Notes under the pieces: model-generated
The model's database searches: none
What the model was told of the DNA's origin: nothing
What the model saw: only the letters and a program-made list of their open reading frames with translations
In this document: positions 51,345 to 59,567 of the stretch, in pieces
Position numbering within the stretch: the stretch's first letter is position 1
How the letters are laid out: every line of letters starts with the position of its first letter
Position numbers and translations under genes: made by a program
Assembly: GCA_024279425.1 (NCBI GenBank)
Contig: JAJRRO010000074.1
Span: forward strand, 248,001-312,000
Source: Bacteroidota bacterium
GTDB lineage: Bacteria; Bacteroidota; Bacteroidia; Flavobacteriales; Flavobacteriaceae
Direction of reading: 5' to 3'
DNA: 64,000 nucleotides

Positions 51345-51352
51345 TACATTTG
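51345..51352 (+). promoter_or_regulatory. -7 box just upstream of the arginine leader ORF
   Basis: TACATTTG is an exact TAnnTTTG match and ends 8 bases before the leader ATG at 51360. Transcription would therefore begin at or within a few bases of the ATG, giving a nearly leaderless leader peptide. The -33 element is weak. Confidence 0.5.
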
Positions 51353-51359
51353 ACAAGTA

Positions 51360-51443
51360 ATGAAGAACGAACTACATATTTCCACAACTAATTGGGCATT
51401 CGCTCCCAATCGTTCATTTACACCCACACGCCGCCGCCCGTAA
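51360..51443 (+). CDS. Putative arginine-attenuation leader peptide
   Basis: A 27-codon ORF directly upstream of the arginine operon. It starts MKNELHISTT, contains a single Arg (NRSF), and ends TPTRRRP with three consecutive CGC codons at 51429-51437 before TAA at 51441. It has the hallmark of a leader peptide whose ribosome would pause when Arg-tRNA is scarce. Two hairpins lie across it: ATTGGG/CCCAAT (51391-51396, 51405-51410) and ACACCC/GGGTGT (51420-51425, 51444-51449). The second flanks the Arg codons, so a stalled ribosome would prevent it. A third hairpin (CTAT/ATAG with wobble pairs, near 51450-51467) competes. No clean U-tract terminator is visible. Confidence 0.65.
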   Translation: MKNELHISTTNWAFAPNRSFTPTRRRP

Positions 51444-51535
51444 GGGTGTCTATAATTATGGAGATAGGTGTGTCCATTTCCGCAAAAAATTCAAACAAAT
51501 TATTTTTCAAAAATTTTTATTTAAACTAAGTAACA

Positions 51536-52156
51536 ATGGAAATTGTTATTGCCAACGAATCCCATTTTAAATACGCAGAGGTGATTTGCGATGCCATAGG
51601 CGAATCGGCTAAGGTAAGGGGAACTGGTATTGCCAAGAGAACTCCGGATTATATTCTCAAAAAACTTGAAAATCGGAATGCCGTCATTGCACTCGATGAT
51701 GGCAAATTTGCTGGTTTCTGTTATATTGAAATTTGGGGACATGATAAATTCGTGGCCAATTCCGGTCTTATTGTACACCCGGATTACAGAAACCAAGGTC
51801 TTGCAAAAAAAATAAAAAAGTCCATTTTTGAGCTTTCAATCAAGAAATTTCCAACAGCCAAAATATTTGGCATTACAACGGGTTTGGCCGTGATGAAGAT
51901 CAATTATGAGTTGGGATACAAACCTGTGACCTTTTCCGAACTAACAGAGGACCCCCAATTTTGGAAAGGCTGCCAGACGTGCAAAAACTTTGACATTCTT
52001 ACCAGAACAGAACAAAAAATGTGTTTATGTACAGGAATGTTATATGATCCAGCGTCAAAGAAAAAAAATGCAAAAAAAGAAAAAGTCAACGGAAAGGCTT
52101 TTAAAAGACTAAAAAGTATAAAGGAACAACTGTTTCTTAAAAGGAAAACCAAATAA
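51536..52156 (+). CDS. GNAT acetyltransferase of the arginine operon, candidate N-acetylglutamate synthase
   Basis: A 206-residue GNAT with FAGFCYIEIWGHDKFVANSGLIVHPDYRNQGLAKKIKKSI (acetyl-CoA R/QxxGxG-type loop) and GITTGLAVMKINYELGYKPVTF. Bacteroidota that lack a classical argA/argJ need an acetylating enzyme for this operon, and this gene sits at its head. The C-terminal 60 residues form a basic tail with a cysteine set (CQTC and, 14 residues later, CLC) that could bind metal. A short perfect hairpin (52159-52176) separates it from argG. Confidence 0.8.
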   Translation: MEIVIANESHFKYAEVICDAIGESAKVRGTGIAKRTPDYILKKLENRNAVIALDDGKFAGFCYIEIWGHDKFVANSGLIVHPDYRNQGLAKKIKKSIFELSIKKFPTAKIFGITTGLAVMKINYELGYKPVTFSELTEDPQFWKGCQTCKNFDILTRTEQKMCLCTGMLYDPASKKKNAKKEKVNGKAFKRLKSIKEQLFLKRKTK

Positions 52157-52193: not shown

Positions 52194-53384
52194 ATGAGCA
52201 AATTAGTATTAGCATATAGTGGCGGGTTAGATACCTCGTATTGTGCAAAGTATCTCTCCAAGGAAAAAAGGTATGAAGTTCATGCCGTAAGTGTCAACAC
52301 AGGTGGGTTTTCCTCAGAAGAGATTTCTTCCATAGGGGAAAAAGCCATTGAATTGGGCGCCAGCTCTTATACTTCGATAGATGCCGTGCAAACCTTTTAT
52401 GACAAGGTTGTAAAGTATCTTATCTTTGGCAATGTCCTGAAGAATAACACTTACCCACTCTCGGTAAGCGCGGAACGAATTGTGCAGGCCATTGAAATTG
52501 TCACCCATGCAAAAAAAATAGGTGCCGAATATATTGCACATGGAAGTACTGGGGCAGGCAACGATCAGGTAAGGTTCGATATGATTTTTCAAATCATTGC
52601 TCCAGAAATTGAAATAATAACCCCAATACGGGATAATAAATTGGCCCGTGAGGCCGAAATTGAATACCTCAAGGAAAACGGCGTGGATTATTCTTGGGAA
52701 AAAGCCAAATACTCTATAAACAAAGGCCTGTGGGGAACATCGGTCGGTGGTGAAGAAACTTTGACTTCAAATTTACCGTTGCCAGATTCGGCATATCCCA
52801 GTCAATTACAGGAAAAGAATCCAACGGAGGTGAAACTCACTTTTGAAAAAGGGGAATTAATTGCCATTGACGGACAAAAAGATACACCCGTAACCAACAT
52901 TGAGAAATTGGATGCTCTTGCCTCCAAATATGCTATAGGAAGGGATATCCATGTGGGTGATACCATAATCGGTATAAAAGGCAGGGTTGGTTTTGAAGCT
53001 GCGGCATCACTTATTATTATAAAAGCCCATCATTTATTGGAAAAACACACCTTGAGCAAATGGCAACAGTACCAAAAAGAACAACAAGGTAATTTCTACG
53101 GAATGTTATTGCATGAAGGTAATTATCTCGACGAAGTAATGCGAAATATTGAAGCTTTCTTAACCGATACCCAAAAGAATGTTTCGGGAGATGTATTCGT
53201 TTCACTCTATCCTTTTCAATTTAAATTAAACGGCATCTCCTCTGAACATGACCTTATGAATGCCTCATTCGGAAGTTATGGAGAAATGCATAAAGGATGG
53301 ACAGCTGATGATGCCAAAGGCTTTATCAAAATTCTTTCCAATTCAGGAAAAATATATAACCACGTAAATCATAGCCATGATTAA
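52194..53384 (+). CDS. argG: Argininosuccinate synthase
   Basis: Joins citrulline and aspartate using ATP. The 396-residue enzyme starts with the PP-loop LAYSGGLDTSY, followed by AHGSTGAGNDQVRF, TPIRDN, EEYLKENG-like, LWGTSVGGEE and DPIVGIKGR-like sequence (IIGIKGRVGFEAA). The length is standard. It overlaps argC by 8 bases, so the genes are coupled. Confidence 0.95.
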   Translation: MSKLVLAYSGGLDTSYCAKYLSKEKRYEVHAVSVNTGGFSSEEISSIGEKAIELGASSYTSIDAVQTFYDKVVKYLIFGNVLKNNTYPLSVSAERIVQAIEIVTHAKKIGAEYIAHGSTGAGNDQVRFDMIFQIIAPEIEIITPIRDNKLAREAEIEYLKENGVDYSWEKAKYSINKGLWGTSVGGEETLTSNLPLPDSAYPSQLQEKNPTEVKLTFEKGELIAIDGQKDTPVTNIEKLDALASKYAIGRDIHVGDTIIGIKGRVGFEAAASLIIIKAHHLLEKHTLSKWQQYQKEQQGNFYGMLLHEGNYLDEVMRNIEAFLTDTQKNVSGDVFVSLYPFQFKLNGISSEHDLMNASFGSYGEMHKGWTADDAKGFIKILSNSGKIYNHVNHSHD

Positions 53385-54351
53385 GATAGGAATTATTGGG
53401 GGATCCGGTTATACAGGTGGGGAGTTGATCCGAATTTTATTGAACCACCCTAAAGCCGATATTGATTTTGTGTACAGTACCACAAGGGCAGGCAAGAAGG
53501 TTTCCACTGCACATCCTGATTTGTTGGGGTTGACAGAATTAAATTTTACAGGAGACGTAAATCTAAATGTTGATGTGATTTTCCTTTGTCTAGGGCATGG
53601 TAATTCTACCAAGTTTTTAAATGAAAATGATTTTTCCACAACAACCAAAATCATCGATTTAAGTAATGATTTCAGGTTAAAGGCAGATTCCATTTTACAT
53701 GGAAAAGAATTTGTTTATGGACTCCCTGAACTGAAAAAATCAGATATTGAAAATGCCAATCATATAGCCAATCCTGGCTGCTTCGCGACAGCGATCCAAC
53801 TGGCATTGCTCCCCTTGGCAAATACAAATCTTTTGAACAATCAGATTCATGTAAATGCAGTTACCGGAAGTACCGGAGCGGGAATAAGTCCGTCTGGAAC
53901 CACACATTTTAGCTGGCGAAATAGCAATGCTTCTTGGTATAAACCATTTACACATCAGCATTTGGATGAAATCAATGAAAGCCTAGAGTCGCTCCAAAAG
54001 CACGTTGGGGAAATCATGTTCTTACCCAATCGAGGAAACTTCACAAGAGGCATATTGGCCACCGCCTATACCCCTTTTGAAGGTAGTGAAGCTGATGCCG
54101 TTAACCTATATCAGAACTTTTATAAAGAAGCCGAATTCACGCATGTGGCAGAGGAACCAATAAGCTTAAAGCAAGTGGTGAACACCAACCAATGCCATAT
54201 ACACTTGCATAAACATCAGGATACACTGCTCATAACCTCGGCCATAGATAATTTATTGAAAGGAGCTTCAGGGCAGGCCATACAAAATATGAATTTAATG
54301 TTCGGCTTTAAAGAGCGTGAGGGATTACAATTAAAAGCTGGAGCTTTTTAA
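53377..54351 (+). CDS. argC: N-acetyl-γ-glutamyl-phosphate reductase
   Basis: NADPH reduction of N-acetylglutamyl phosphate. The 324-residue protein starts with GIIGGSGYTGGELIRIL (nucleotide loop) and has the catalytic Cys in IANPGCFATA (about 135), TGSTGAGISPSG, and a conserved His in NRGNFTRGI context. It starts within the argG 3' end. Confidence 0.94.
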   Translation: MIKIGIIGGSGYTGGELIRILLNHPKADIDFVYSTTRAGKKVSTAHPDLLGLTELNFTGDVNLNVDVIFLCLGHGNSTKFLNENDFSTTTKIIDLSNDFRLKADSILHGKEFVYGLPELKKSDIENANHIANPGCFATAIQLALLPLANTNLLNNQIHVNAVTGSTGAGISPSGTTHFSWRNSNASWYKPFTHQHLDEINESLESLQKHVGEIMFLPNRGNFTRGILATAYTPFEGSEADAVNLYQNFYKEAEFTHVAEEPISLKQVVNTNQCHIHLHKHQDTLLITSAIDNLLKGASGQAIQNMNLMFGFKEREGLQLKAGAF

Positions 54352-54443: not shown

Positions 54444-55247
54444 ATGAAAATAGCCATTATAGGAGCCGGAAACCTAGGACTGTCAATTGCAGAAGGTGTC
54501 TTACATAGCAACGGTGCCACAAGCATGTACTTGACCAAAAGGAATATTGAGAGTATCCAACATTTTGAAAAATACGGGAATGTTACCGTGACGACCGATA
54601 ATAGGGACGCCGTTCAAAACTCCGATATTTTGATTTTCGCAGTACAACCCCTGCATATTGGCAAATTATTGGAAGAAGTCCAAGATTTGCTTACTGAAAA
54701 ACATGTTGTTATTTCAACCATTACCGGTTTTAGTATTGAAAGCATAGAAAAAATTATTGGTAAAGACCAGAACATTATTCGAAGTATGCCCAATACAGCC
54801 ATTTCCGTTGGGAAATCAATGACTTGCGTATGTGCCAACGAAAAAGGAAAGAAAAAAATCGAGCTGGCCAAGGCTATTTATAATCGCATGGGACATACTT
54901 TGGAGATTCCAGAGGAGCAAATGCAGGCAGCTACGGTTATCTGTGCCAGTGGGATAGCATTCTGGATGCGTTTGATACGAGCCACAACACAAGGTGCCAT
55001 CCAGTTGGGATTTGATGCCAAGGAAGCCCAAGAATTGGCCATGCACACCTGTGATGGTGCTGCTGGTCTTTTAATAGCTTCAGGTCATCATCCCGAAGAA
55101 GAAATAGATAAAGTCACCACACCCATGGGATGTACCATTCAAGGGTTGAACGAAATGGAACACCAAGGATTAAGTTCTTCCTTGATACAAGGTATTGTGG
55201 CATCTTATGAAAAAATAACCAGAATTAAGGAAAAAAGACAACTGTAA
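54444..55247 (+). CDS. proC: Pyrroline-5-carboxylate reductase
   Basis: Last step of proline synthesis. A 267-residue NAD(P)H enzyme: IAIIGAGNLGLSIAEG at the N-terminus, IIRSMPNTAISVGKSMT, and the C-terminal TTPMGCTIQGLNEMEHQGLSSSLIQGI motif (usually TxPGGxT; here PMG). A 92-base AT-rich gap follows argC. Its presence inside the arg cluster reflects the shared glutamate-semialdehyde chemistry in these operons. Confidence 0.93.
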   Translation: MKIAIIGAGNLGLSIAEGVLHSNGATSMYLTKRNIESIQHFEKYGNVTVTTDNRDAVQNSDILIFAVQPLHIGKLLEEVQDLLTEKHVVISTITGFSIESIEKIIGKDQNIIRSMPNTAISVGKSMTCVCANEKGKKKIELAKAIYNRMGHTLEIPEEQMQAATVICASGIAFWMRLIRATTQGAIQLGFDAKEAQELAMHTCDGAAGLLIASGHHPEEEIDKVTTPMGCTIQGLNEMEHQGLSSSLIQGIVASYEKITRIKEKRQL

Positions 55248-55366: not shown

Positions 55367-56494
55367 ATGAAATTATTTGACGTATATCCATTATACAATG
55401 TCACTCCTGTTTCTGCTAAAGGAATCAAGGTGACCGATGACAAAGGGCAGGAATATCTAGATTTTTATGGAGGACACGCAGTCATATCCATAGGACATTC
55501 ACATCCCCACTATTTAAAGCGCCTTAAGAGTCAATTGGACAATATCGGGTTTTATAGCAATGCGGTCCAAAATCCTTTACAAGTGCAATTGGCCACTAAA
55601 CTGGGTCAACTTTCCAACTGCCCTGATTACAATTTATTTCTTTGCAATTCAGGTGCCGAAGCCAATGAAAATGCATTGAAAATGGCATCCTTTCAAACGG
55701 GGAAATCACGTGTTATCTCCTTTAAAAATAGTTTTCATGGAAGAACCTCCGCAGCTGTCGCAACTACGGATAATGAAAAAATTAACGCTCCAATCAACAA
55801 ACAGCAAAAGGTAACCTTTTTGCCCTTTAATGATATAGAAGCATTCCGCTTCGAAATCAAAAAAGGAGATGTTTGCGGGGTAATTTTAGAAGCTATTCAA
55901 GGCATAGGCGGATTGGATGAACCTACCACCGAATTCTATCAACAAATTGCCAAGCTTTGTAAAGAAAATGAGGTGATATTGATTGCCGATGAGATACAAT
56001 GTGGTTTTGGTCGAAGTGGAAAGTTCTTTGCGTTTCAACACCACGGCATACAACCTGATATCATTACCATTGCCAAAGGCATGGGTAATGGATTCCCAGT
56101 TGGGGGCGTATTGATTCATGATAGTATTAAGGCTTCATACGGTCAATTGGGAACTACATTCGGAGGAAACCATCTGGCCTGCGCTGCGACTTTGGCCGTC
56201 CTAGAAGTTATAGAGAAGGAAGGCTTAATAGAAAATGCCAAAGAACTTGGTGACTATTTTTTGGAAAAAGCCCAAGAGATTCCGCAAGTAAAACAAACCA
56301 AGGGAAAAGGATTGATGTTAGGATTGGAGTTTGATTTTGAAGTTGCTGAACTTCGAAAAAAGTTGATTTATGAAGAACATCTTTTCACAGGTGGGGCAAG
56401 CAACAAAAAGGTACTCCGGATCCTTCCGGCATTGAACATTACCAAAGCTGATATGGATATATTTTTCAATAAGTTAAAAATAGCGTTGTCATGA
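55367..56494 (+). CDS. argD: Acetylornithine aminotransferase
   Basis: PLP-dependent transaminase converting N-acetylglutamate semialdehyde to N-acetylornithine. The 375-residue enzyme shows YLDFYGGHAVISIGHSHP, NSGAEANENALKMA, SFHGRT, ADEIQCGFGRSGKFFAF and the Schiff-base lysine in IAKGMGNGFPVGG. It overlaps proA by 4 bases. Confidence 0.94.
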   Translation: MKLFDVYPLYNVTPVSAKGIKVTDDKGQEYLDFYGGHAVISIGHSHPHYLKRLKSQLDNIGFYSNAVQNPLQVQLATKLGQLSNCPDYNLFLCNSGAEANENALKMASFQTGKSRVISFKNSFHGRTSAAVATTDNEKINAPINKQQKVTFLPFNDIEAFRFEIKKGDVCGVILEAIQGIGGLDEPTTEFYQQIAKLCKENEVILIADEIQCGFGRSGKFFAFQHHGIQPDIITIAKGMGNGFPVGGVLIHDSIKASYGQLGTTFGGNHLACAATLAVLEVIEKEGLIENAKELGDYFLEKAQEIPQVKQTKGKGLMLGLEFDFEVAELRKKLIYEEHLFTGGASNKKVLRILPALNITKADMDIFFNKLKIALS

Positions 56495-57687
56495 GTTTGA
56501 TTTTGAACATAACACAGCGCAATGCTGTCCTTAATTCCATGATCAAATGGATAGAGATGGAGAAGAATTCGGTTTTGGAGGCCAACAAGAAAGATTTGGA
56601 GGAATATAGTGGAGACGATATAGCCATGTATGACCGCCTAAAAGTGGACGAGGACAAAATAAAAGGGATGAAACAATCCCTAGTAGAATTGGCTAGGCAA
56701 AAAGACCCCTTAAATATTGAGCGTTTTCAATTTGAGCACGAAAATGGTATGCATGTAAGTAACCGAACCGCTCCTTTTGGTACGGTATTGATTATTTACG
56801 AATCCAGACCTGATGTAACCATAGAAGCCGCTGGAATAGCCTTTAAATCTGGTAACAAGATTCTATTGAAAGGAGGTAAGGAATCGTTGAACAGTAATTT
56901 AGTCCTTATCGACCTATGGCACCGGGCTTTGGAAGAAAACCAAATTTCAAAAGATTGGGTTACCTATTTACAATATGATAGGTCCCAAACCCAGGACTTC
57001 CTGGAAAATCCTACTCAAAAAGTAGATTTGATCGTACCTAGGGGTGGCGAAAGATTGATTGCCTTTGTAAAACAGCATGCCACTTGTCCGGTTATCGTTA
57101 GTGGAAGGGGCAATAATTTTCTTTTCGTTGACAAAGAGGCCGACCCACAGATGGCATTGGATATCATTCTAAATGCCAAGGTTACAAAAATATCGGCCTG
57201 CAATGCCCTTGATAAGGTTTTGATTGCTGCCGATATGCCCAGAAAACTGGAATTCATCCAACATTTAGTAGATGGACTTAAAGAAAGCAAGGTTCAAATT
57301 TTGACGGACGACATACTTTCCAGTATCGAAGGGACTACCCCTATTGAAAGCGAGGAGACCTGGTATGAAGAATTTTTAGATTATAAGATTGTTTTAGGGC
57401 AAGTACCAAACTTGGGCGAGGCCATTGAAAAAATCAACACCTATGGTGGAGGGCATTCGGCAACGATAGTGACGACCAATGAAGAAACTGCCGATGCGTT
57501 TATGAATACCGTTGATACAGCAGCCGTATATCATAATGCTTCAACCCGTTTTACCGATGGCGGCCAATTCGGATTGGGTGGAGAGCTGGCTATAAGCACA
57601 GATAAATTACACCAAAGAGGGCCCATCGGATTGCAGCACTTGGTTACCAACAAATGGTATGTTAAAGGGAATGGCCAGATTAGATAA
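56491..57687 (+). CDS. proA: Glutamate-5-semialdehyde dehydrogenase (γ-glutamyl phosphate reductase)
   Basis: Second step of proline synthesis. The 398-residue ALDH-like protein contains APFGTVLIIYESRPDVTIEAAGIAFKSGN, LPRGG-like VPRGGERLIAFV, and the catalytic Cys in SACNALDKVL (about 230). The N-terminus and C-terminal QFGLGGELAISTDKLHQRGPIGL are as expected. The ATG overlaps the argD stop. Confidence 0.94.
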   Translation: MSLILNITQRNAVLNSMIKWIEMEKNSVLEANKKDLEEYSGDDIAMYDRLKVDEDKIKGMKQSLVELARQKDPLNIERFQFEHENGMHVSNRTAPFGTVLIIYESRPDVTIEAAGIAFKSGNKILLKGGKESLNSNLVLIDLWHRALEENQISKDWVTYLQYDRSQTQDFLENPTQKVDLIVPRGGERLIAFVKQHATCPVIVSGRGNNFLFVDKEADPQMALDIILNAKVTKISACNALDKVLIAADMPRKLEFIQHLVDGLKESKVQILTDDILSSIEGTTPIESEETWYEEFLDYKIVLGQVPNLGEAIEKINTYGGGHSATIVTTNEETADAFMNTVDTAAVYHNASTRFTDGGQFGLGGELAISTDKLHQRGPIGLQHLVTNKWYVKGNGQIR

Positions 57688-57867: not shown

Positions 57868-58629
57868 ATGAATAAAAAACGTATTCTTTTAAAGATTGGA
57901 TCTAATACCTTGACCAAAGAAACCGATCAAATTTCTCGGGGCAAAATTGAGGATATTGGAAGGCAAGTTGTGGCCTTAAAAGATGAATACGAATTCATTA
58001 TCGTAAGTTCAGGGGCCATAGCGGCAGCCAAGCAATTTGTGAAATTGGAGCATAATGGAGCGGCCATTGATGTAAAACAAGCACTAGCAGCAATCGGACA
58101 ACCCCATTTAATGCGGATTTTTCAAGAGAATTTTAGGGAATTGGGACTATTCACTTCCCAATGTTTGTTGTCCTACTCAGATTTTGATAACGCCGATGCC
58201 AAGGCCAATATAAAGAACACCATTAATGTACTGGTCTCCAATAACTTCATTCCCATAATAAATGAAAATGATACTGTTGCCACTGATGAGATTCAATTTG
58301 GTGACAATGACAAATTAGCAGCTTTGACCGCAGTCCTATTGCAAGTAGATTTATTGATGATAGCGACCAATACAGATGGGATATACACCAAGGATTCAAT
58401 TGAAAAACAACAACCTGAGACCATTATCTCCGTTTCTGGAGCCCAAAGTTTGAGGAAGGAAATAAGTACGGCCAAATCTTCCCATGGCACAGGGGGTATG
58501 CAATCAAAAATCGAGGCTTCAGTCATTGCCCAAACTGCCGGTATTGAAACTTGGATTGTTAATGGGTTAAAAGACAATTTTATAACCGAGGCCCTAAAGG
58601 GGACAAGTAACCACACTAAAATCAAATAA
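57868..58629 (+). CDS. proB: Glutamate 5-kinase, short form
   Basis: First step of proline synthesis. The 253-residue amino-acid kinase has LLKIGSNTLT, VSSGAIAAAKQF, NENDTVATDEIQFGDNDKLAA and GTGGMQSKIEAS. It lacks the C-terminal PUA domain of Escherichia coli ProB, which is normal for the short form. The stop TAA overlaps the argF' ATG, so the gene is coupled. Confidence 0.92.
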   Translation: MNKKRILLKIGSNTLTKETDQISRGKIEDIGRQVVALKDEYEFIIVSSGAIAAAKQFVKLEHNGAAIDVKQALAAIGQPHLMRIFQENFRELGLFTSQCLLSYSDFDNADAKANIKNTINVLVSNNFIPIINENDTVATDEIQFGDNDKLAALTAVLLQVDLLMIATNTDGIYTKDSIEKQQPETIISVSGAQSLRKEISTAKSSHGTGGMQSKIEASVIAQTAGIETWIVNGLKDNFITEALKGTSNHTKIK

Positions 58630-59567
58630 TGCAAAACTACCTCTCTATAAACGATATTGATTCACTTCCCGAATGGGTTGAAGAGGCCAAGGCCATAAAA
58701 AAAGACCCACTGAAATCCAAGTCTTTGGGAAAAGACAAGACCATAGGATTGTTGTTCTTTAACAATAGCCTAAGGACCCGTCTAAGTACTCAAAAGGCAG
58801 CTATAAATTTAGGAATGGAAGTCATTGTAATGAACTTTGGCAGTGAAGGATGGGCATTGGAATATGCCGATGGCACCATTATGGATCAAGGTACTTCAGA
58901 GCATATTAAGGAAGCCGCTCAAGTCGTTTCCCAGTATTGCGATATTGTGGCAATAAGGGCTTTTGCTTCATTAAAAGACAAGGGAAAAGATGAAGCGGAA
59001 GTTGTCTTGAACGGTTTTAAAAAGTATGCAAGCGTTCCAATTGTAAATATGGAAAGTTCTATGGGGCATCCGTTGCAAGCTTTGGCAGATGCCATAACCC
59101 TAGCTGAAAATTCAATCAAAACAAAACCGAAAGTTGTACTTTCATGGGCGCCCCATCCTAAGGCATTGCCCCATGCCGTAGCTAATTCATTCGTTCAAAT
59201 GATGCAGTTGCAAGATGCCGATTTTATTATTACCCATCCCCAAGGCTATGAATTGGATCCAAAAATCACCAAAAATGCACAAATTGAATACAATCAAGAG
59301 AAGGCATTGGAAAATGCCGATTTTGTATATGTCAAAAATTGGAGCAGTTATTCGGATTACGGTAAGGTCAACAATCAAGACTCAAATTGGATGATGACCA
59401 AAGAAAAATTGGGGAAGGCCAAATTTATGCATTGTCTCCCAGTACGAAGAAATGTTGTTGTGGAAGATGCGGTATTGGATAGTAATCAATCCCTGATCAT
59501 AGAGCAAGCCAATAATAGAACCTATTCCGCGCAAGTGGTTTTGGAAAAAATATTAGAAGACCTTTAA
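58629..59567 (+). CDS. argF': N-acyl-ornithine carbamoyltransferase (ArgF' type)
   Basis: Carbamoylates acetyl- or succinyl-ornithine, the Bacteroidota/Xanthomonas variant of the arginine route. The 312-residue protein has NNSLRTRLSTQKAAINLG (carbamoyl-phosphate site), MDQGTSEHIKEAAQV, HPLQALADAITLAE, and KFMHCLPVRRNVVVEDAV. The residue before EH in the 80s loop is Ser (about 90); I cannot assign acetyl versus succinyl preference from this. The argE-like gene downstream fits an acyl-citrulline pathway. Confidence 0.92.
   Translation: MQNYLSINDIDSLPEWVEEAKAIKKDPLKSKSLGKDKTIGLLFFNNSLRTRLSTQKAAINLGMEVIVMNFGSEGWALEYADGTIMDQGTSEHIKEAAQVVSQYCDIVAIRAFASLKDKGKDEAEVVLNGFKKYASVPIVNMESSMGHPLQALADAITLAENSIKTKPKVVLSWAPHPKALPHAVANSFVQMMQLQDADFIITHPQGYELDPKITKNAQIEYNQEKALENADFVYVKNWSSYSDYGKVNNQDSNWMMTKEKLGKAKFMHCLPVRRNVVVEDAVLDSNQSLIIEQANNRTYSAQVVLEKILEDL

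Follow-up and report, generated by a model that had tools for sequence, protein, structure and literature searches.

A putative arginine-responsive leader peptide with two hairpins and no strong intrinsic terminator ahead of the arg/pro gene cluster of Flavobacteriaceae

In the window (the whole stretch of 64,000 nucleotides analysed here, from a member of the Flavobacteriaceae), a short ORF that ends in three consecutive Arg codons precedes a cluster of arginine and proline genes in the order GNAT-argG-argC-proC-argD-proA-proB-argF'. Judging from its sequence and from that of its relatives, this ORF probably encodes an arginine-responsive leader peptide whose readout does not pass through an intrinsic terminator, and the regulatory codon (Arg) matches the product of the operon. 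The ORF itself, its Arg codons, a hairpin (H1) at its end, a second hairpin (H2) beyond it, the spacing between them and the lack of a strong terminator can be read directly in the sequences. A preliminary description of the locus had proposed an arginine-codon leader ahead of the arg operon, and this central claim is well supported by the conserved frame, Arg codons and hairpins reported below. The features are collected in Table 1.

Table 1. Leader region and downstream arg/pro cluster, in coordinates of the window.
Feature	Coordinates	Strand	Support
-7 promoter-like box TACATTTG (exact TAnnTTTG)	51345..51352	+	promoter motif match
Leader ORF MKNELHISTTNWAFAPNRSFTPTRRRP, then stop; 27 codons, ending Arg-Arg-Arg-Pro-stop	51360..51443	+	frame and Arg-rich end kept in relatives
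H0, hairpin ATTGGG/CCCAAT within the leader ORF	51391..51410	+	codon-shuffle test
Arg run CGC CGC CGC, proposed sensing codons	51429..51437	+	sequence; codon counts in relatives
H1, CGCCC-GTAA-GGGTG, spanning the last Arg and Pro codons, stop in loop	51435..51448	+	pairing in relatives
H2, GGAGAT / bulged A / GG-UGUGU-CC / ATTTCC	51460..51481	+	covariation; arm-swap test
GNAT-type acetyltransferase, first cluster gene	51536..52156	+	sole NCBIfam match PRK07757, E 2e-07, under curated cut-off
argG	52194..53384	+	best matches argininosuccinate synthase; none over cut-off (TIGR00032, 264.8 bits vs 268.2)
argC	53377..54351	+	TIGR01850 above cut-off
proC	54444..55247	+	TIGR00112 above cut-off
argD	55367..56494	+	TIGR00707, 374.8 bits; cut-off of 410.05 not reached
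proA	56491..57687	+	match above cut-off
proB	57868..58629	+	match above cut-off
argF' (N-acetylornithine carbamoyltransferase-like)	58629..59567	+	PRK04523, 288 bits, at cut-off of 288

Relatives of the leader were collected in two ways. The GNAT gene was present in 59 of 99 genomes, that of the window included, and the H2 loop motif was found in 41 of the 59 upstream regions, all 41 from Flavobacteriaceae; these H2-bearing regions gave the alignment A1 and the model R1, which describes H1 and H2 together. R1 matched 156 of 249 Flavobacteriaceae genomes, with a single match in all but three (G053, G124 and G227, two matches each), and 93 genomes had no match. Among 50 genomes of the family searched both ways, R1 matched 33 of the 34 with GNAT and none of the 16 without it; those 33 genomes largely supplied R1, and the informative part of the comparison is the 16 genomes without GNAT. 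In a draw at the level of the order, 14 of 196 genomes were matched, 13 of them Flavobacteriaceae and one, weakly (E 0.004), in another family, and in genus g151 none of the 17 genomes listed was matched. Retrieval through R1 matches yielded 30 loci and then 80 more. The 172 loci were reduced to 159 unique ones by dropping L068 and L072, which have no match to a GNAT of the window type, and 11 repeats. The strict H2 loop is missing in 21 of the 159, a related loop being present in four of these (L039, L152, L157 and L167), and the 138 strict-H2 loci are made up of 41 found via the GNAT search and 97 via an R1 match. Codon counts cover the 135 of the 138 loci with a findable H1 anchor, spacing figures cover 126, and the covariation alignment consists of 100 loci picked from the 159 and aligned to R1. 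Tests outside the family cover 63 of 66 loci (L201-L203 excluded).

The ORF with its three consecutive Arg codons is present where the preliminary description had placed it; the run is followed by a Pro codon (CCG, 51438-51440) and the stop (TAA, 51441-51443), and one further Arg codon occurs at 51411-51413. The exact TAnnTTTG box reported just ahead of the leader ATG was likewise recovered, with a gap of 7 nt to the ATG; TAnnTTTG is the form in which the -7 consensus of sigma-A is given (PMC9723704). Across the 138 loci scanned, a TAnnTTT(G/A) box lies ahead of the start of the Arg-ORF in 109 (46 for a control with the reversed pattern), and the distance from box to ORF start is 4-7 nt in 96 of these 109, which supports the earlier suggestion that the message is nearly leaderless. 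The first of the two hairpins proposed there, H0, also exists; the best hairpin inside the leader ORF has a weight of 13.6 compared to 10.9 for codon shuffles, and it exceeds the codon-shuffle mean in 115 of the 138 loci.

The pattern in the relatives is the one expected of a leader that is read for its codons. Its frame has no stop over the 17 upstream codons in 133 of the 135 loci, compared to 56 and 53 for the other two frames, and the last ten codons hold a mean of 3.87 Arg in the leader frame against 0.51 and 0.16 in the others. The second-last codon before the Pro is Arg in 122 of 135 loci (CGT in 88, CGC in 31 and CGA in 3) and the third-last in 73; when only the 41 loci of the GNAT search are taken, this second-last codon is Arg in 36 of the 40 that could be anchored. 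The last codon before the Pro is Arg in 132 of 135, a count obtained partly by construction because the anchor itself admits only CGC or CCC there; since this last Arg codon is fixed as CGC, synonymous change at that position is uninformative. Pro and stop follow the Arg codons in 123 of the 135 loci. An in-frame ATG is available in 101, and the leader starts are uncertain in the other 34 because GTG or TTG would be needed.

Short ORFs arise easily in a single sequence, and on the window alone the ORF and its hairpins could have been taken for chance; the conservation in relatives and the controls contradict this, and its probability is practically nil. A direct arginine riboswitch with incidental coding potential would agree with an RNA that is structured and conserved, but it is extremely improbable given the frame that stays open in those 133 of 135 loci, the interchange of CGT and CGC at the second-last Arg codon and the lack of any match to the leader among the covariance models of Rfam 15, at gathering thresholds and also with E up to 1 (a histidine leader of the same genome, L175, likewise has no Rfam match). 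In the fungal arginine attenuator peptide it is the nascent chain by which arginine is sensed, and an arrest peptide of this type would suit the Arg-rich C-terminus next to the stop and the Pro-stop ending just counted. However, apart from the Arg-rich/Pro end the leader peptides of relatives diverge, so that no conserved nascent sequence is found, and outside Flavobacteriaceae even the ends vary (RR-stop, RRA-stop, RRPARV-stop); this reading appears quite improbable.

H1 is paired in 94.7% of cells in the 100 aligned sequences, and because it is nearly invariant its covariation within Flavobacteriaceae is weak: a compensatory AU for CG occurs in 2 of 100 sequences, at one pair, and the outermost pair fails in 24 of 98. 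In the second hairpin of the preliminary description, at 51420-51449, ACACCC (51420-51425) can pair with GGGTGT (51444-51449), but the pairing that is conserved is that of CGCCC (51435-51439) with GGGTG (51444-51448). H2, which has the better support, is absent from that description. Taken together, H1 and H2 have 96.8% of cells in standard pairs compared to 88.4% in shuffled alignments (100 sequences), cells changed on both sides number 110 against 31.0 in shuffles, and covariation is 0.280 against 0.124, with none of 500 shuffles as high and versions with slid partners reaching at most 0.071. This covariation comes almost entirely from H2, and the alignment was fitted to R1, which holds the same H2 and makes the measure lean towards it. 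An arm-swap test independent of the R1 alignment gives a mean of 6.36 bp for the H2 outer helix compared to 4.42 bp with swapped arms (138 loci). The comparison with other Flavobacteriaceae that had been proposed thus finds the terminal Arg codons conserved (at the second-last position in 122 of 135), H2 covarying and H1 nearly invariant.

The loop of H2 is almost fixed as UGNGU: per 100 sequences, U is found in 100, G in 100, A, U or C in 77, 16 and 7, G in 100 and U in 99. The bulged A is present in 97 of 100 sequences, and of the inner pairs one is GC in all 100 and the other GC in 97 and AU in 3; in L039, L152 and L167 the loop-closing GG/CC is replaced by GA/UC. The distance from the stop codon to H2 is 27.8 +/- 1.1 nt (range 25-30), whereas that from H2 to the GNAT ATG is 67.0 +/- 10.4 nt (range 56-113; n = 126 for both), and because the first is tight and the second loose, H2 is positioned relative to the leader and not to GNAT. 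In the window, 16 nt separate the stop codon from H2, which places it just beyond the footprint of a terminating ribosome. The motif GGAAN{1,3}TTAGGTGNGTCC proved too strict, with 2 matches in 40 genomes and the H2 of the window itself missed, and a pairing between the H2 loop and the Arg codons was dropped, since it was found only in the window and L003, as was the ACACGCC/GGUGUGU helix of the minimum-energy fold of the window leader.

Retention of the bulged A, of GG/CC (or GA/UC) and of UGNGU while the outer helix changes has a possible explanation that overlaps with the preferred one, namely that H2 would be the site for a trans-acting RNA-binding protein or for a component of the ribosome or RNA polymerase, the leader controlling access or processing. 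By eye no pairing partner for the H2 loop was found, and CCTAYGYGG, a sequence seen in 9 of 63 upstream regions outside Flavobacteriaceae and in none on the reverse strand, points the same way. On the other hand, no candidate H2-binding factor is known and H1+H2 occurs about once per genome, so that a dedicated regulator would serve a single operon; a factor-binding H2 is possible, though less likely than not.

The preliminary description had seen no clean U-tract terminator, which is true for the window and general in its relatives. A terminator score of at least 18 is reached in 2 of 138 arg loci compared to 27 of 28 his loci, the score being our own rule with an arbitrary threshold, applied from 60 nt before H2 in arg loci and to the last 150 nt in his loci. 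Four of the 138 arg loci reach 16, 37 hold any weak candidate and the median is 0; among the his loci all 28 hold a candidate and the median is 23. H1 as a terminator was rejected, T making up 48% of the first 8 nt after H1 (132 loci), which is too weak generally. The his loci are upstream regions of hisG (L173-L200, the window's own being L175), all 28 of which contain an ORF in which at least two His codons are adjacent; it has three or more His in 27 and two in L191. Since 27 of these 28 carry strong terminators, this lineage does use intrinsic terminators in leaders, and the arg leader is an exception; attenuation via an intrinsic terminator is unsupported for the arg loci by the same counts, and the doubt that the preliminary description itself had expressed on this point was justified.

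These figures weigh on the classic attenuator of the trp/his type, in which H1 would be the 1:2 hairpin, H2 (3:4) the intrinsic terminator and 2:3 the antiterminator formed on stalling. In the trp leader the regulatory codons lie in the 5' arm of the first hairpin and the stop in its loop, and the layout here is similar: the 5' arm of H1 contains Arg codons and its loop the stop, although the latter is not strict, the frame continuing through H1 (RRPLG...) in, e.g., L021, L039, L043 and L050. Many loci also show, by eye, a T|G at 11-13 nt past H1, which is the geometry of hairpin-stabilised pauses, T-rich tails follow H2 in L023, L033 and L042, a score of 18 is reached at H1 in L032 and L136, and terminator-bearing his leaders occur in the same lineage. 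Nevertheless the classic arrangement appears unlikely: besides the rarity of scores of at least 18, T is less frequent than background in the 9 nt that follow H2 (0.31 vs 0.41, 138 loci), strand 2 (GGGUG) cannot, by eye, pair with strand 3 (GGAA...AGG), both being purine-rich, and a terminator would need neither a fixed loop nor a bulge. No mutually exclusive antiterminator pairing was found by eye in the arg leaders.

For the preferred reading, an arginine-responsive leader without intrinsic terminator, we infer the following sequence of events. Transcription would start a few nucleotides before the leader ATG, and the leader would be translated by the first ribosome. When charged tRNA-Arg is scarce, the ribosome would stall on the CGN run and cover the 5' arm of H1, which would remain unfolded; because this arm consists of the last Arg and Pro codons, a stall on the Arg codons must block H1. 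When arginine is plentiful, the ribosome would reach the stop and depart, and H1 would fold beside H2. H2 itself should be foldable in both states, at its fixed distance from the stop codon, and the difference between H2 alone and H1 plus H2 would then decide the expression of the arg/pro genes. For the readout step our guess, and the likeliest option, would be termination by Rho, or decay of the RNA, within the G-poor stretch that separates H2 from GNAT, with H2 serving as a fixed platform or as a factor-binding site. G makes up 6.2% of this stretch (51482-51535 in the window, and its relatives, 138 loci), and the C/G ratio from H2 to the ATG is 2.55 compared to 0.97 before hisG. A ratio of 2.55 would suit Rho and argues weakly for it; the scarcity of G may also reflect nothing more than a translation start kept open. 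Rho-dependent leader-peptide control operates in mgtL and tnaC, and regulatory codons, a hairpin near the stop and no strong terminator, which characterize Rho-type leader control (speF as well as mgtL and tnaC), are all found in the arg leader.

The arg leader shares with the his and trp attenuators, L175 included, a short ORF in which codons for the product follow one another and a hairpin that covers them and has the stop in its loop; it differs from them by the absence of a strong terminator and of a visible antiterminator and by a second hairpin with a fixed loop. The closest tested analogue is the speF leader of Salmonella (orf34), which has two consecutive Arg codons, a hairpin just downstream of the stop and a readout by Rho and RNase G, and which demonstrates that Rho and RNA decay can work together with such codons and such a hairpin; it differs in that it controls ornithine decarboxylase, its transcription start lies 516 nt upstream, its peptide has the conserved domain DUF2618 and it belongs to another phylum (PMC6386406). 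In Staphylococcus aureus the Arg codons of the rbfL leader peptide also sense arginine, but there low arginine represses rbf by blocking the ribosome binding site (PMC13009471). Within the Bacteroidota, a 2021 report on Flavobacterium psychrophilum gave 'strong clues' to leader-peptide attenuation upstream of operons for amino acids, and TAnnTTTG promoters are a further point in common with the arg leader; an arginine leader is not named in the available part of that report (PMC9723704). Leader-peptide-like sORFs are mentioned in general terms for B. thetaiotaomicron (PMC7366714), the main text of another source, as far as available, contains no word beginning with 'Bacteroid' or 'arginine' (PMC2965389), and a search of titles and abstract openings in an open-access collection returned no arginine leader from Bacteroidota. 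Leader-peptide control is thus known as a broad kind, and the structure and output of the arg leader appear new, because it has no Rfam match and the flavobacterial attenuation clues of 2021 come without an arginine leader. With it, the Bacteroidota would have a leader-peptide sensor of arginine that lacks the defining terminator of the textbook attenuators, in a genome whose his leader does carry a strong one. The bases conserved in the loop and bulge of H2 are exact targets for mutation and a bait for finding a factor, and they make the coupling of translation and expression directly testable in bacteria whose translation does not depend on Shine-Dalgarno sequences.

Outside Flavobacteriaceae, 42 of 63 loci have an Arg-rich ORF (score of at least 5) ahead of GNAT, compared to 12 of 63 reverse strands and 2 of 28 hisG upstream regions as controls, and the remaining 21 loci score below 5. 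A looser rule (at least 4) retains 46 of the 63 loci, and 17 of 63 reverse strands also pass it. Within 60 nt past the stop, a hairpin with a YNNGY pentaloop and a stem of 5 bp or longer occurs in 12 of these 46 loci (1.9 expected by letter shuffles), three of which (L216, L227 and L310) differ from the others in their loops and may be fortuitous; most loci at class level are without such a hairpin. CCTAYGYGG forms clean hairpins in, e.g., L319 and L322. No Arg-rich ORF was found upstream of GNAT in L052-L054, L056-L058, L202 and L203, the last two from genus g151 with a GNAT at 67% identity and no Arg leader seen. Because Arg-rich ORFs, pentaloop hairpins and CCTAYGYGG recur outside the family, the arrangement probably predates Flavobacteriaceae. 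In L217, L220 and L222 the 3' arm of H1 (GCGTA) is, by eye, complementary to the H2 loop (TACGC) and might form a kissing contact; as a general feature this contact was rejected, other loci not fitting it by eye.

A second Arg-rich leader, ORF1, lies in tandem upstream in 55 of the 138 loci (54 by a narrower rule); the calls in L015 and L078 look spurious, which leaves somewhat over a third of loci. ORF1 is located about 225-310 nt upstream of GNAT in L035, L023, L028 and others, has the form KNKIR...RNRRR (in L035, MKNLKNKIRCSTPGLPVRNRRRF followed by the stop) and begins right after a -7-like box in, e.g., L023 and L035. A T-rich tract follows ORF1 ahead of the second leader in most tandem loci, and a terminator score of at least 16 was reached in none of 54 ORF1 regions. 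In the loci from the window's own genus, L001-L011 and L018, no ORF1 was found. An extended A/U helix surrounding ORF1 was discarded, as it barely exceeds swapped arms (19.6 vs 17.7). It is conceivable, though we would not favour it at present, that all these leaders belong to an ancient, class-wide arginine RNA switch in which a stalled ribosome would toggle H1 and a factor would read the YNNGY hairpin (UGNGU in Flavobacteriaceae, CCUAYGYGG in other Bacteroidia) without an intrinsic terminator, tandem leaders acting in series in over a third of the Flavobacteriaceae loci sampled.

As the first gene of the arg cluster, GNAT is a candidate for a missing acylglutamate synthase. Its nearest named relatives are from Maribacter in four of five cases (M. 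arenosus 91%, M. aquimaris 85%, M. luteus 87% and M. polysiphoniae 86%), and for this reason the window most likely comes from a Maribacter-like member of the Flavobacteriaceae. A hairpin over the GNAT start codon (51529-51550, AGTAACAAT-GGAA-ATTGTTATT, 9 bp) is present in the window and its genus and was rejected because it fails the swap control, with 6.28 bp compared to 6.02 bp for swapped arms in 135 loci. In L068 (1769-2362) and L072 (1660-2244), H1 and H2 precede a different acetyltransferase-like gene, identified by eye, and not a GNAT of the window type.
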